Part shown: positions 20,067 through 56,298 of the stretch, piece by piece
How positions within the stretch are numbered: the stretch's first letter is position 1
Layout: each line of letters opens with the position of its first letter
Source: Halorussus halophilus
GTDB lineage: Archaea > Halobacteriota > Halobacteria > Halobacteriales > Haladaptataceae
Assembly (NCBI RefSeq): GCF_008831545.1
Contig: NZ_CP044523.1
Coordinates: forward strand, 186,001 to 250,000
Direction: 5' to 3'
Length of the DNA: 64,000 nucleotides
Translations under genes and position numbers: made by a program
The notes under the pieces: generated by a model
Database searches by the model: none
What the model was told of the DNA's origin: nothing
What the model saw: only the letters and a program-made list of their open reading frames with translations

Positions 20067-20566
20067 GGCAGTGGCTACGTTGGGACGGCAGAGGGAGCCG
20101 AGTTCCCGCGAGACGTGTCGCCGACGGCGACACACACGTGAGGAAAGTCCCCCCACCGTTCGGGCAGGCGACCGGACGCAAGCCCGGAGTGGGAGACCAC
20201 TGGCTCTGGAACAGAAACGAGACCACTCGGCCCGACCGATGAGGCACGCGAACCCCGACCGAGCAAAGGAACGGGAAGTTAACCTGCCGAGGGCGCGTTC
20301 CAGCGTAGCTGGAACGTTACAGTGAACCGGTGTAACCGGTGAACGGGTTCTGCCGAAGGCAGAACCGCAAGGCCGAGAATGGATGGAACGGCGAATCCCC
20401 GCCGGTGCAAGTCCGCACTACGCGGCCCTTCGGGCCGCACAGGTAGCCCGAACACACCGCCGAGGCAACTCGGCGAGCTTCCGGACGCAGTCCGGAAACA
20501 GGTGCGGACGCTCAGCCGAATACTCGGACGAACAGAAGGGGGCTTACTCCCCTCAGCCACTTGTCG
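20067..20566 (+). ncRNA. rnpB: RNase P RNA (archaeal type A)
   Basis: Catalytic RNA that removes tRNA 5' leaders. CR-I is GTGAGGAAAGTCC (20138-20150) and CR-V is ACAGAAGGGGGCTTAC (20532-20547), the two universal RNase P signatures in the right order and spacing. P1 can form from GTGGCT (20071-20076) with AGCCAC (20555-20560). The 3' strand of P1 follows CR-V directly, as expected. Internal hairpins such as GGTTCTGCC-gaa-GGCAGAACC (20345-20365) and GCGGCCC-ttc-GGGCCGC (20422-20438) fit the peripheral helices. Exact ends are uncertain by about 15 nt. Confidence 0.92.
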
Positions 20567-27793: not shown

Positions 27794-27936
27794 GCTAGCT
27801 ACGCAGAGTTCGAGAAAGTTGAACTCGCCGGTCGGACAGAACTCGACTGCTCGGCGTTCTAAGTCGTCTTCTGTACCGATCTTCTGTCCCGCTCGTCGTT
27901 CCACTCCTCGCTCGCTTTACTCACTGCGGTCACCGT

Positions 27937-27990
27937 CCTTGAAAAACGTCGATGAAAAAGACCGCTCGCTCACTTCGTTCGCTCGCGGAA
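27937..27990 (-). repeat. Dispersed element family 2, short copy at the 3' end of the aminopeptidase gene
   Basis: Read on the minus strand right after the aminopeptidase stop: a CCGCGAGCGA block, a GAGCGAGCGG block, then CTTTTTCATCGACGTTTTTC. These correspond in order to blocks 1, 2 and 3 of the copies at 31051-31347 and 56125-56298. The long hairpin segments are missing. The T-runs make it a plausible terminator for the aminopeptidase transcript. Confidence 0.6.
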
Positions 27991-29088
27991 CTACTCCTCG
28001 AAGCCGTCCTCCCACCGGAACGTGCCGTCACGTTGGACGACCTCCCCGTCGATTTCCATCCACGAATTCTCGCTCATATCGGTGATCATATCGACGTGGA
28101 CGGCCGACTGGTTGCCCTCCTCGCCTTCCGGCAGACAGGACCCGTACGCGCGGCCGACCGCGAGGTGAACCGTGTCGCCCATCTTCTCGTCGAAGAGGAT
28201 GCTGTCGGTGAAGCGGTCGATGCCGCGGTTCATGCCGATGCCCAACTCGCCGAGTCGTCGCGCGCCCTCGTCGGTCGTGAGGACGTCTTCGAGCGCCTGC
28301 TCGCCCGTCTCTGCCGACCAGTCGGTGACTTCGCCGTCCTCGAAGGTGAGGTGAACGCCCTGAATCCGCACGCCGTCGTGAGTCATCGGCACGTCGAAGT
28401 ACACCTCGCCCTCGGGGTTCGCCGGCGCGGTGAACACCTCTCCGCTCGGCAGGTTGTGGCTGCCGTAGGCTACCGAAGCCGCGCTGTTGATCGCACTGCG
28501 GCCCTCGATGGACATCGTGAGGTCCGTGTCCTCCTTGACGAGTCGAACTTCGCTTCCCTCGTCCAGCAGGTCTTTCATGTTCGCCATCTCGTCGGCGAGT
28601 TCCTCCCAGTCGCGCAGGATAGCCTCGTAGACGAAGTCCTTGTACTGCTCGTAGCCCATCCCGGCCTGCTGGGCGTGGGCGCGCGTGGGGTGCAGGGTCG
28701 ATACCCAGTCGGTCGCGAGTCGCGCGGCCCGAGCCTCTTGGCGGGATTTCTTGTACGCCGCGCGCTTGTCGCCCGGTGCGGCGGCCTCCGCGGCGGTGTT
28801 GCACTGTCCGCGCAGCGAGAGGACGCTGTCGGCGCGTTCGAGCATCGCCAACTCGAACTCGGGGTCGGCTTCGAAGTCGCCGTCGTGGCCTCGGATGTAC
28901 GCCGCTTCGACTTCCTTGGAGGGATACGTCGGGAGGACGTTGGCTCCGCGCTCGCCCAACTTCTCGGCGACTGCGACCGCGAGGTCGTGCGCGCCGTCGT
29001 CTACTCGCAGTACTACGTCGTCGCCCGCCTTGATGCGGGCGCTCCAATCGACCAGCACCTCGGCATGCCGGTGAATACGTTCGTCCAT
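27991..29088 (-). CDS. M29-type aminopeptidase
   Basis: 365 aa, thermophilic-aminopeptidase (AmpS/PepS) family, a two-metal exopeptidase of the cytoplasm. Seen: DWSARIKAGDDVVLRVDDGAHDL at the N-terminal domain, SIEGRSAINSAASVAYGSHNLPSGEVFTAP (the conserved N-L-P-x-G-E segment with a metal-binding Glu), and the C-terminal metal ligands in MGDTVHLAVGRAYGS and SAVHVDMITDM. ATG 29088 (MDERIHRHAEVLVDWS). Length is normal. A family-2 element copy follows the stop, and a family-1 fragment lies upstream. Note that motif stretches quoted are fragments of longer conserved regions. Confidence 0.85.
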   Translation of the reverse strand: MDERIHRHAEVLVDWSARIKAGDDVVLRVDDGAHDLAVAVAEKLGERGANVLPTYPSKEVEAAYIRGHDGDFEADPEFELAMLERADSVLSLRGQCNTAAEAAAPGDKRAAYKKSRQEARAARLATDWVSTLHPTRAHAQQAGMGYEQYKDFVYEAILRDWEELADEMANMKDLLDEGSEVRLVKEDTDLTMSIEGRSAINSAASVAYGSHNLPSGEVFTAPANPEGEVYFDVPMTHDGVRIQGVHLTFEDGEVTDWSAETGEQALEDVLTTDEGARRLGELGIGMNRGIDRFTDSILFDEKMGDTVHLAVGRAYGSCLPEGEEGNQSAVHVDMITDMSENSWMEIDGEVVQRDGTFRWEDGFEE

Positions 29089-29352: not shown

Positions 29353-31050
29353 ATGATTCACGCCGAAGGTCCGCTACTCACAATCGACGTGGGCGAGCGC
29401 GAAGCGTCCACGACAGACATCGACGACGTACTCGCCGACTTTATCGGGGGGCGCGGGGTCGCCACGAAGTTGGCACACGACCGCATTCCCTTCGATGCCG
29501 CCCCGCTCGGGGCCGACAACAGCCTCTTCTTCTCTACCGGGCCGCTCCAGCACTCTCAGACCAGTTTCACCGGCCGGATGAACTGCACCGGTCTCTCCCC
29601 CCTCACAGGAGGACTGCTCTCCTCGAACGCGGGCGGGTTCCTCTCGCGCAATTTCACTGGGACTGGCTACGCCGCCGTCGAGGTGACGGGCCAGAGCGAG
29701 GAGTTGCTGGCGATTCACGTCACTGACGAGGGCGTCGAGTTCGAGGAAGTCCCAGGACTCGAACAAGCCACCGTGTCAGAGACTGGCGACGCTATGGAGG
29801 AACGCCACGGTTTCGGCGAGGACCAACTCGTCGTCGCAGGCCCGGCAGGCGAGAACGCAATCCGGTTCGCGTCCATCATGACCACCGAGAGCAGGGCGTT
29901 CGGCCGCGGCGGACTCGGCGCAGTGTTGGGCACGAAGGGCGTCAAGTGCATCTCCTTCGAGGGCGACTCCGAGAGAGCGGTCGAACTCGACCTCGGGTCG
30001 GTCGGCACCGACCTCCACCGGGACGCCGCGACTGCGACGGACAACCCCATGAAGGAGGCCGGAACGACCAGCGTCACGGAGTACGCCAACATGGTCGGCG
30101 CGCTCCCGACGCGCTACTTCTCCGAACTCGAATTCGAGGGCGCGGCCGACATCGGCGGCGACGCCGTGAGCGAGAAGAAGTACCAGAAAGGGACCTGCTC
30201 GCAGTGTGCGTTCGCCTGCAAACTCCCGACCCGAGACGAGGAGACCGGCCTCGAAACCGAAGGCCCGGAGTACGAGACGGTAATGGCGTTCGGGTCGAAC
30301 GCGGGCGTGGACGACGTGGTGTCGGTGATGAAGTCCAACGACCTCTGCGACAAACTCGGCATGGACACGATTTCCTGCGGTGACGTGGTCTCGGCCTACC
30401 TCGCCGCCAACGACGAGTTCGGCAACGACGAGTTGATTCACGAGTTGGTCGAGAAGATAGCGTACAGAGAAGACGAGGGGGACCTGCTCGCGGAAGGCGT
30501 CGCGCGCTGTCACGACGAACTCGGCGTCGAGAACTGGACCGTGAAGGGACTGGAATTCTCGGCCCACGACGGTCGGCACCTGAACGGGCAGGGTCTGGCG
30601 TTCGCCACCGCGAACCGCGGTGCGGACCACATGTATGCCGAATTCTACTCGAAGGAGTACCCACTCGTCCCGAAGGAGGAGGCGCTTGACCCCGAGGGGT
30701 TGGAGGGCAAACCGCCGCTCGTCGCGGAGAAAGAGAACCACAGCGCGGTGCTGGACAGCGGCGTCGTCTGTAAGTTCTCCCGGAGCTTCATGACTGAGGA
30801 ACGATTGGAAGGACTACTCGACGCCGACTACGAGGCGTTGCAGGAAATGGGCGCGAAGGTCGTCGAGTTAGAGCGCCACTTCAACAACCAGCGGGGCTTC
30901 GACCGCGAGGACGACACCCTGCCGTACGACCTGCCTGAGTTCGAATCTGCGCTCTCGGAGTACTACGACGTTCGGGGCTGGAACGACGACGGGACGGTGC
31001 CGGAGGGGAGCGTTGCGGGTGGTTCTGGCGCGGCGAGCGCGGACGACTGA
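29353..31050 (+). CDS. Aldehyde ferredoxin oxidoreductase family protein (copy 1, complete)
   Basis: 565 aa. Tungsten/molybdenum bis-pterin enzyme family that oxidises aldehydes to acids with ferredoxin. The N-terminal domain has the expected IGGRGVATKLAHDRI and FFSTGPLQHSQTSFTGRMNC. The [4Fe-4S] ligands are all present: CSQCAFAC (Cys282, Cys285, Cys289) and Cys473 (SGVVCKFSRS). EGPEYETVMAFGSNAGVDD and CDKLGMDTISCG are family signatures. The C-terminal LPEFESALSEYYDVRGWNDDG is typical. Substrate unknown. ATG 29353 lies close after an AT-rich promoter region. Confidence 0.9.
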   Translation: MIHAEGPLLTIDVGEREASTTDIDDVLADFIGGRGVATKLAHDRIPFDAAPLGADNSLFFSTGPLQHSQTSFTGRMNCTGLSPLTGGLLSSNAGGFLSRNFTGTGYAAVEVTGQSEELLAIHVTDEGVEFEEVPGLEQATVSETGDAMEERHGFGEDQLVVAGPAGENAIRFASIMTTESRAFGRGGLGAVLGTKGVKCISFEGDSERAVELDLGSVGTDLHRDAATATDNPMKEAGTTSVTEYANMVGALPTRYFSELEFEGAADIGGDAVSEKKYQKGTCSQCAFACKLPTRDEETGLETEGPEYETVMAFGSNAGVDDVVSVMKSNDLCDKLGMDTISCGDVVSAYLAANDEFGNDELIHELVEKIAYREDEGDLLAEGVARCHDELGVENWTVKGLEFSAHDGRHLNGQGLAFATANRGADHMYAEFYSKEYPLVPKEEALDPEGLEGKPPLVAEKENHSAVLDSGVVCKFSRSFMTEERLEGLLDADYEALQEMGAKVVELERHFNNQRGFDREDDTLPYDLPEFESALSEYYDVRGWNDDGTVPEGSVAGGSGAASADD

Positions 31051-31347
31051 CAACCTTTTGCTGCGCTCAGTTGCCAGAAGCCGAAGGCTTCTGGCTGCTT
31101 CGCTGTCTTCGCGCGGTGTTGCCGCGCGAATGGTCCGAGGGACGGAGTCCCTCGCTAGCAAAACGTTGATGAAAAGCACCGGAAGACAAACAGCGTCTTC
31201 CGAGCCTTCCTTCGCGTCCGCTCAGGAAGACACGTCGTCACCTTCTCTGTTGCGCCAAAGGCGCTCCTCCGAAGGTTCCTTGGCCCGCTCGCTTGGCGAG
31301 GCGCGCACGGCGCGCCTCACCTCGCTCGCGGTAGAAGTTCTCGACCC
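31051..31347 (-). repeat. Dispersed element family 2, long copy with covarying hairpins
   Basis: Fills the gap between the convergent AOR and thiolase genes. Read on the minus strand from the thiolase stop: TTCTACCGCGAGCGA, hairpin, AGCGAGCGGGCCAAGGAACC, hairpins, GTGCTTTTCATCAACGTTTT, hairpins, CGCAGCAAAAGGTTGT. Perfect stems on the plus strand: 31073-31082/31086-31095 (10 bp), 31108-31116/31122-31130 (9), 31136-31143/31147-31154 (8), 31180-31187/31195-31202 (8), 31252-31256/31260-31264 (5), 31298-31306/31310-31318 (9). The blocks are shared with the copy at 56125-56298; the stem sequences are not. Confidence 0.85.
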
Positions 31348-32493
31348 TTAGCGTTCGAACGTAATCGCCGCGCCCTGCCCGAAGCCAACACAGAGCGTCG
31401 CGAGACCCTTGTTCACGTCGCGGCGAATCATCTCGTGAATCAGCGTCACGGGCAGACGCGCGCCGGAGGCACCGAGCGGGTGACCGAAGGCGATTGCGCC
31501 GCCGTTGACGTTGAACTTGTCGTCGTCCACGCCGAGTTCGTTCTTCGAGTAGACCGTCTGACTGGCGAACGCCTCGTTCAGTTCCACGAGGTCGAAGTCC
31601 TCGATAGACTCGCCAGTGCGTTCAAGCAGGCCCTGCGTGGCCGGGACGGGGCCGATACCCATGACGCTCGGGTCCACGCCAGCGACGTTGTTGTCGCCGA
31701 CGGTCGCCATGATTTCGAGGCCGTGGTCCTCGGCGAAGGCCTTGCTCGTGACGAGCGTGGCGGCCGCGCCGTCCGCGATTTGGCTGGAGTTACCTGCCGT
31801 GACGGAGCCGTCGCCGACGAAGACGGAGGGGAGTCCGGCCAGCGTCTCTGGGTCGGTGTCGGGTCGGATGCCTTCGTCTTCCTCCACGACGCCCTCCTCG
31901 GTCTCGATGGGGACGATTTGGCCGTCGAAGTAGCCCTTCTCGGTCGCCTCTGCGGCGCGCTGGTGACTCCGCGCGGCGTACTCGTCCTGTGCTTCGCGGG
32001 GCACGTCGTAGCGGTCGGCGACCTCCTCGGCGGTCATCCCCATCTGGAGCGCCGGGAGGTTGTACTCCTCGGACATCCGTGGGTGGATGGACCGGCCCTG
32101 ATAGCCGCCGCCCATCGGCACGCGGGACATGTTCTCGACGCCACCCGCGATGATTACGTCGCGTTGGCCCGCTCGGATGGCGTCGCTCGCGCTGATGAGT
32201 GCCTGCATCGAGGACGCACACCAGCGATTGATGGACGCCGCCGGAACGCTCTCGCCGAGGTCCGACAGGAGCGCGATGATTCGCGCGACGTTGTTGTCCT
32301 GCTCGTCGCGCTGTTGGGCGACGCCCCACATGAGGTCGTCCACGTGTTCGCCGGTCAGTCCGGTCTCCTCTAAGATGGTGTCCACGAGCGGAATCGAGAG
32401 GTCCTCGCTCCGCACGTCGGCGAAGACGCCGTCCTGCTTGCCCTGCGGCGTTCGGATGGCTTTCGCGATGACTGGAGTGGTGTCGTCTGCCAT
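31348..32493 (-). CDS. Thiolase (acetyl-CoA C-acyltransferase)
   Basis: 381 aa. Catalyses thiolytic cleavage of 3-ketoacyl-CoA or the reverse condensation. The acylated Cys is in NRWCASSMQAL (about 91), the catalytic His is in GHPLGASGAR and the second Cys is in CVGFGQGAA near the C-terminus. GGVENMSRVPMG and VNGGAIAFGHP are family hallmarks. ATG at 32493 (MADDTTPVIAKAIRTP). Full length for the type I/II biosynthetic or degradative thiolases. No neighbouring fatty-acid or PHA genes to decide the direction. Confidence 0.93.
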   Translation of the reverse strand: MADDTTPVIAKAIRTPQGKQDGVFADVRSEDLSIPLVDTILEETGLTGEHVDDLMWGVAQQRDEQDNNVARIIALLSDLGESVPAASINRWCASSMQALISASDAIRAGQRDVIIAGGVENMSRVPMGGGYQGRSIHPRMSEEYNLPALQMGMTAEEVADRYDVPREAQDEYAARSHQRAAEATEKGYFDGQIVPIETEEGVVEEDEGIRPDTDPETLAGLPSVFVGDGSVTAGNSSQIADGAAATLVTSKAFAEDHGLEIMATVGDNNVAGVDPSVMGIGPVPATQGLLERTGESIEDFDLVELNEAFASQTVYSKNELGVDDDKFNVNGGAIAFGHPLGASGARLPVTLIHEMIRRDVNKGLATLCVGFGQGAAITFER

Positions 32494-32633
32494 GGTTCGG
32501 TTTCCGGGCCGGACGGTCTTAAATGGCGGTAGAACCGCTAGCACATCGTCAACTGTTTTTCTGATACTTGAGGGGTCTGGGCGGCGCGATAGCAGATGAA
32601 CTATCCGGCGGGCTATTGCTGGTAAACCATACA

Positions 32634-33037
32634 CAGGGTGGACTGAAAGGGGCCGCCGGGTCGCGTTTATCGTGGTCGGTTCGGCGACCTGCTCGTGAGC
32701 GAAGCGATCAAGGTCCTCGAAAATCGGAGATTTTCGGGATGTGGCGAATCTCCGATTCGCAACAGCTCGTCGGACGCGGTTTGTCCGACGGTGGCGACCG
32801 GCCGGGGGCTTTCGAAGAGAAAACCTCGGTTGTGCTGGCTGCTACGTAGCGACGACACGTTGAAGCTAGCTACTCCCGAAACCGAGGAGCGACCGCACAG
32901 CACCCGCCGAGCCACACCCTCCCCAGCCGACTGCGCGACTCGATTCTGGAAAACACGACCTCGTCGTGTTTTCCACGCTCGTTGCTCGTCCCTCGCGCGG
33001 AATTGACGTGACACGAGGTCACGCCAGCGCGCGCCGC
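32634..33037 (+). repeat. Dispersed element family 1, full copy
   Basis: About 400 bp in the 734-bp gap (32494-33227) upstream of the Agl23-type gene. Blocks in order: CAGGGTGGACTGAAAGGGG, GTCGCGTTTATCGTGGTCGG, GGGGGCTTTCGAAGA, GTGCTGGCTGCTACGTAGCG, AGCTAGCTACTCCCGAAACC, GACCGCACAGCACC, CCCTCGCGCGG, CGCCAGCGCGCGCC. Hairpins: GAAAATC-gga-GATTTTC (32719-32735), GCGAATC-tcc-GATTCGC (32744-32760), CGTCGGAC-N7-GTCCGACG (32768-32790), 12-bp stem 32948-32959/32963-32974, and CGTGAC-acgag-GTCACG (33007-33023). Matching blocks with different stems occur at 51315-51660. Confidence 0.85.
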
Positions 33038-56016: not shown

Positions 56017-56124
56017 CTTTTCGACTTGCGGCTCCGCGCGCGAGACGCTGGCGAACGTTTTTCGTGCTGGTTGGGTGACCACCTTGTTGTAGCAGACTGA
56101 CCTTGTGCGGTAGTCGTCCAGCGA

Positions 56125-56298
56125 TTCTACCGCGAGCGAAGACGAGATTCCGCAGGAATCTCGCTGGAGCGAGCGGGCCAAGGAACCCGCAGAAGAGCGC
56201 GCTTCGCGCGCTCTGTCGCGGGTGACGCCGTGCTTTTCATCAGCGTTTTGCCAGTGGTCGGGCGCGGAACGCGCCCGGCCCGCAGCAAAAGGTTGTTC
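56125..56298 (+). repeat. Dispersed element family 2, long copy with covarying hairpins
   Basis: In the 329-bp gap 56017-56345. Blocks: TTCTACCGCGAGCGA (56125-56139), AGCGAGCGGGCCAAGGAACC (56168-56187), GTGCTTTTCATCAGCGTTTT (56230-56249), CGCAGCAAAAGGTTGT (56281-56296). Perfect hairpins: CGAGATTCC-gca-GGAATCTCG (56143-56163), AGAGCGCGC-ttc-GCGCGCTCT (56194-56214), with outer CCCGC/GCGGG, and CGGGCGCG-gaa-CGCGCCCG (56259-56277). The same blocks with different stems occur on the minus strand at 31051-31347. It lies downstream of the dephospho-CoA kinase gene in the same gene-relative orientation. The remaining 56017-56124 shows only a T-run (CGTTTTTCG, 56056-56064). Confidence 0.85.

Follow-up and report, generated by a model that had tools for sequence, protein, structure and literature searches.

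The window, by which we mean the whole 64,000-nucleotide stretch of Halorussus halophilus DNA that was analysed, contains two full copies of a palindromic intergenic element, one filling the spacer between the convergent AOR and thiolase genes and one lying 5' of rps24e. The gap between the AOR stop codon and the 3' end of the first copy is 0 bp, and the 3' end of the second adjoins the rps24e promoter (TTCGAAATCCTTTTAC). An earlier note had counted three copies; the third is a degenerate remnant directly 3' of the stop codon of a gene ending at 27991. The features are:

29353-31050 (+): AOR gene, convergent with the thiolase gene
31348-32634 (-): thiolase gene, convergent with the AOR gene
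31051..31333 (-): element copy 1, whole, in the spacer between these two genes
31285..31331 (-): HP1 of copy 1, CCGC-GA-GC-GA[variable hairpin]GC-GA-GCGG (fold and covariation)
31240..31276 (-): HP2 of copy 1, ACC...GGT, with CCAAGGA and GACGACG on either side
31180..31233 (-): optional insert of copy 1, GTGTCTTCCTGAGC..GTCTTCCG
31158..31179 (-): D block of copy 1, GTGCTTTTCATCAACGTTTTGC, with T-tracts and an internal CAAC pairing with terminal GTTG
31051..31168 (-): HP3 of copy 1, CAAC-G-TTTTGC...GCAAAA-G-GTTG, with extra hairpins within (fold)
56128..56295 (+): element copy 2, whole, 5' of rps24e
56130..56176 (+): HP1 of copy 2 (fold)
56185..56223 (+): HP2 of copy 2 (fold)
56230..56251 (+): D block of copy 2
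56241..56295 (+): HP3 of copy 2 (fold)
27934..27990 (-): degenerate remnant, a minimal HP1 joined directly to a D-like block (E = 0.019)

All four blocks that the earlier note had aligned between the regions at 31051 and 56125 are where it had placed them, with 0 mismatches in both copies; in the window search the B block was expected by chance 0.04 times at ≤3 mismatches and the D block 0.00 times, the TTCTACCGCGAGCGA block alone being weak (10 matches vs 4.6 expected). The hairpins are likewise real in both copies, the folds of 31050-31336(-) and 56128-56297(+) giving z = -7.4 and z = -5.3 with 0/200 shuffles folding equally well in each case, and the stems between the first two blocks are indeed unrelated. 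The layout drawn earlier for copy 1 stands for its blocks and is corrected by the extra insert (31233-31180) and by extra hairpins in the third domain; the limits are also revised, the start now being TACCGC, upstream of which there is merely a weak conserved motif. Just past the HP1 end of many elements we observed TGCGGT-rich degenerate direct repeats (window 56090-56127 and the rps24e spacer of genome G003). The optional insert (31180-31233 (-), GTGTCTTCCTGAGC..GGCTCGGAAGACGCGGTTTGTCTTCCG) occupies an identical position in several own-genome copies, recurring in L008, L015, L009 and L016 with a variant in L022 and L024, and part of it lies inside an HP3 from a different species (G016), so that the insert may represent a nested repeat.

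Using pattern and covariance searches, about 35 distinct elements were found in the own genome (4.45 Mb), all on contig C1. A covariance model of 135 positions, made from nine own-genome copies with the variable stem centres trimmed, detected members of the family in 37 out of 59 relatives and, at E ≤ 1e-5, in 89 of 194 Halobacteria genomes, representing 33 of 65 genera. Rfam yielded no match to the family at gathering or permissive thresholds, its sole match in the window lying elsewhere, at RNase P (archaeal RNase P RNA, 20087-20558 (+), 138.7 bits). A literature search with element sequences returned unrelated matches only, no description of the family was found in the literature searched, and no copy was found in plasmid and phage collections. 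Two loci (L012 2945 (+) and L024 659 (-)) carry shorter relatives, in which D-like blocks (GACTTTTTCATCGACGTTTTTC..GCAGAAAAAGGT, TTTTGATCGACATTTT) are preceded by just one long hairpin.

All copies share a skeleton of three hairpins with fixed closing helices and tandem G.A internal loops, within a total size of ~105-290 bp, too short for a transposase, and with the palindromes HP1 and HP3 close to the ends. HP1, with the consensus listed for copy 1, is followed by CGTC (or GGC), C, RAG, GA, ACC[HP2]GGT, GA, C and GACG (or GCC), then by an optional insert, GTGNTTTTCAT and finally HP3 (consensus CRAC-G-TTTTGC[variable]GCAAAA-G-GTYG). Three-base loops occur in 277 of 375 hairpins, the commonest being CGAAG, and 116 copies contain 413 tandem GA/GA internal loops. 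Among 87 copies from the genus and its relatives, 31 of 39 pairs have changed on both sides, and double-changed cells clearly exceed those in shuffles in the own genome (143 vs 46), in the genus and relatives (283 vs 77) and in other genera (126 vs 30), with 0/500 shuffles reaching the observed value in each set. As the alignments were fitted to the model and lean towards structure, the slide control matters here: shifting partners by 1-3 columns abolished the covariation signal. Pairing between the terminal bases and the interior is nearly exceptionless (columns 213-303: CG 55, GC 30; columns 214-302: AU 43, GC 29, CG 13), and stepwise compensatory change inside stems is also present. The earlier proposal of selection on structure, made from two copies, is supported by many further covarying copies in which the hairpins are kept.

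The family has a conserved fold supported by covariation, the property by which structured non-coding RNA families are recognised. Moreover, because G.U exceeds A.C (218 vs 98, p = 1e-11) and G.A exceeds C.U (285 vs 22) in skeleton pairs, it is the strand named by the earlier note that folds, either as RNA or as single-stranded DNA, and the opposite strand folds worse in 114 of 116 copies. A 3' UTR element or small RNA folding on this strand, with a kink-turn-like loop possibly bound by L7Ae, would account for the covariation, the wobble asymmetry and the tandem GA pairs, and the sequence of P2 resembles a k-turn in that two covarying helices are separated by GA/GA and an adjacent 3-nt bulge. 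Nevertheless we consider such an RNA improbable, since in most copies the adjoining gene transcribes the opposite strand, the variable stems contain very few wobble pairs, Rfam holds no match, and no A+T-rich promoter-like peak was found upstream of HP1. The last result also led us to reject an independent sRNA gene. An archaeal C/D box, considered for the TGATGA on the gene strand, was dropped as a matching D box was not seen.

Whole-stem replacement, which the earlier note had read from two copies, proved partly misleading: the stems do differ, and when 113 copies were parsed their hairpins turned up again in other copies. In the own genome, pairs of copies sharing one module never share a second, with inter-module correlations of 0.07-0.16. 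As modules recur and two copies hardly ever have more than one in common, exchange between copies accounts for much of the apparent stem replacement, and the simplest reading is that this exchange runs via the conserved blocks; recombination through these blocks would let copies swap hairpins, so that stems turn over and the fold is kept. Stem turnover, along with near-perfect stems and few G.U or A.C intermediates, would also be expected of functionless palindromes, kept perfect by template switching and left as neutral debris. We regard this explanation as very improbable, as it does not fit the conservation of non-palindromic blocks and of a class-wide skeleton, the almost exceptionless four-base pairing between flank and interior, or the near-complete retention at one gene end described below.

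The elements mostly lie close against gene boundaries. In 66 of the 87 copies facing a gene 3' end, HP3 ends -2 to +4 bp from the stop codon (or tRNA end) of a gene encoded on the opposite strand; distances on the HP1 side are scattered (3-765 bp). In a further 25 copies the HP3 end points at a gene start; for 12 of these the distance is 26-63 bp, which places the end immediately 5' of the core promoter. In other genera, 15 of 29 copies lie ≤5 bp from a gene end. These positions depend on gene calls by a simple codon-usage script and ARAGORN, of which single calls are possibly wrong. The adjoining genes are often housekeeping genes (S24e, NAC and tRNAs, as well as CDC48 and thermosome by reading of translations), and neighbouring element pairs that were inspected stand back to back, HP1 to HP1. 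With the background taken from loci fetched around elements, and hence not independent, convergent spacers are commoner with the element (48/101 vs 25/89, p = 0.007) and divergent spacers rarer (8/101 vs 17/89, p = 0.03); the eight copies between divergent genes lie where a terminator is unneeded, which counts against the reading favoured below.

Of 41 gene ends that have the element, 40 carry a T4 tract within 14 nt past the stop codon, compared with 33 of 217 without it (p = 1e-25), and T-tracts occur on both strands of the element. T stretches that end in C are proven terminators in Haloferax volcanii (PMC7237163). The elements resemble these haloarchaeal T-stretch terminators in having a T4-T6 tract just past the gene, often followed by C, and differ from them in that the tract forms the outer arm of an extensive, conserved hairpin cassette and is located a few nucleotides past the stop (PMC7237163). 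From this arrangement in sequence, we infer a terminator or insulator role and retention for it; beside a gene, the T-tract would end the gene's transcript and shield its neighbours. Two further ideas were set aside. Copying of host flank into the element is rejected for this hairpin family, since flank-interior complementarity is limited to 4-5 nt and none runs on into the host gene. An enrichment of CRACC targets after stop codons, seen in two empty-site sets, is suggestive and is not claimed, the background count being contaminated by unfiltered elements.

Comparison of orthologous sites revealed both stable and changing occupancy. Among 17 congeners, nearly every one has the cassette in tight position after the stop codon of a PAPS-reductase-like gene (Pfam); a single congener retains a remnant only and another lacks the cassette. 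The hairpins at this gene are wholly different between congeners. The copy at the AOR end is found in the own genome only, among 16 genomes with the AOR gene, and the NAC promoter is likewise filled in the own genome alone (1/28). At the rps24e promoter, the site of copy 2, 11 congeners are filled and 6 empty, and no element was seen at this site in sister genera; five of the six empty sites retain a CAC as in sister genera, and this CAC is lost in filled sites. The filled state is scattered on a one-gene tree, which implies repeated gain or recombination, and what looks like repeated gain could instead be inter-species recombination. At the L038-type gene (found with an approximate query, the matches identifying the same gene and the stops being read from DNA), roughly half of the congeners carry this hairpin element in the post-stop slot, and most of the others have a second hairpin family there. 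The second family has the same geometry of a T-tract after the stop ([stop]..CCACCTTTTTTCTTCGTCGGGTG..hairpin..CTCGAAAAAATC) and was observed at loci L244, L246, L247, L248, L251, L252, L253 and L257.

Such a record might be read as that of purely cis-acting terminator or insulator cassettes that were never autonomous or mobilised, with 3' ends exchanged by homologous recombination and selection holding the T-tract at the stop. Boundary placement, the T-tract, the housekeeping neighbours, a second family in the same slot in sister species and the near-complete, genus-wide occupancy at one gene end all agree with this, yet it leaves unexplained the copies between divergent promoters, the new single-species gains beside promoters and a set of near-identical, dispersed, sharp-ended copies away from gene ends, and we consider it rather unlikely. 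This last set comes from a genome taken to be Halobaculum gomorrense (G106), in which four copies are 97-100% identical and end exactly (ATAY|AGGTCGTTCACC..GGTGGGTGGGCAG|, with the left flank ACTC in one). Comparing the ends by eye, we found no terminal inverted repeats in these four copies, nor any flanking repeat of at least 5 nt that would indicate target duplication. In at least one genus the hairpin element thus appears, from these sequences, to have been mobile, and mobility has good support. The four copies are separated from the closest called gene by 55-229 bp. Since these recent copies stand away from genes, an insertion rule alone does not explain the placement at boundaries. Older copies could have come to abut genes by selective retention and later trimming, or through a second, site-specific mode; slow trimming is disfavoured because intermediate distances are rare.

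The enzyme that might move the element was sought among Y1 transposases (PF01797), for which 8 of the 18 genus genomes, all 18 carrying the element, gave no match; eight Y1 loci from carrier genomes are without element-like ends. Mobilisation by resident IS605 Y1 enzymes was rejected, as the Y1 distribution does not fit; past Y1 mobilisation is possible despite the present absence in 8/18 genomes. In IS608, the terminus contains a short sequence that pairs with a guide-like segment in the interior. The elements are similar to IS200/IS605 ends and to bacterial REP/RAYT systems in their single-strand-specific hairpins and terminal-internal pairing, but here the pairing closes the hairpin itself and Y1 is missing in the 8/18 carriers. 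REP/BIME sequences are defined by a 20-40 bp palindrome, a GTAG-/CGTC-type tag and a RAYT gene, whereas the present units are three-hairpin structures of ~105-290 bp and many carriers are without Y1.

The closest likeness is to the palindrome-associated transposable elements (PATEs) of Haloquadratum walsbyi (PMC3119063), which are also non-coding, heterogeneous between copies and dispersed in a haloarchaeon, with palindromes near both ends and neither terminal inverted repeats nor target duplication (PMC3119063). PATEs are marked by ends related to an IS605-type transposon, for which our element showed no counterpart at the eight Y1 loci compared. Tight boundary placement, T-tract, three-hairpin skeleton and class-wide range are not described for PATEs in the part of the source consulted (PMC3119063). 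The SMR-A small mobile repeats of Haloquadratum are comparable in being short, non-coding, dispersed and nested with other palindromic elements, but they have inverted terminal repeats, and none were seen in the element studied here (PMC3119063).

Taken together, we favour a modular, non-autonomous, PATE-like palindromic repeat that folds as a single strand, is mobile and has been kept as a transcription-boundary cassette, a reading to which we assign a probability of about 0.4. The folded DNA strand would move with a recombinase supplied in trans. A bolder version, in which folding DNA cassettes home as mobile terminators to the boundaries of transcription units (stop codons, tRNA 3' ends and the upstream edges of promoters), bringing their own bidirectional terminator, recognising or adapting to the site through the four-base flank-interior pairing and replacing one another in the slot during evolution, seems somewhat doubtful. 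What is new relative to the earlier note is the tight placement at gene boundaries, the flank-internal pairing, the indications of mobility and the T-tracts of terminator type. If the favoured reading is true, interchangeable, mobile hairpin cassettes determine many gene ends in haloarchaea. This would account for terminator turnover across an archaeal class and suggest that an unrecognised recombinase is at work. The absence of the family from Rfam and from the literature searched means that the annotation of many intergenic regions is affected, and two questions become testable, namely how archaeal genes acquire terminators and how perfect palindromes turn over with pairing kept.

In addition, we observed several intact tRNA genes whose own 3' end is repeated (11-25 nt) ~110-165 bp further on, together with an inverted partial copy. 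Such duplicated ends occur in the own genome at L008 (tRNA-Val), L050/L011 (tRNA-Ala) and L005 (tRNA-Pro) and in relatives at L112, L099 and L122, the last with two in a row and a greater distance. Blocks between the tRNA and the duplicated end are shared (CAAGTCGCAYGCCCGGACCGTCTTGC), and the hairpin element adjoins the duplicated end. These duplicated tRNA ends look like mini-elements inserted at tRNA 3' ends.
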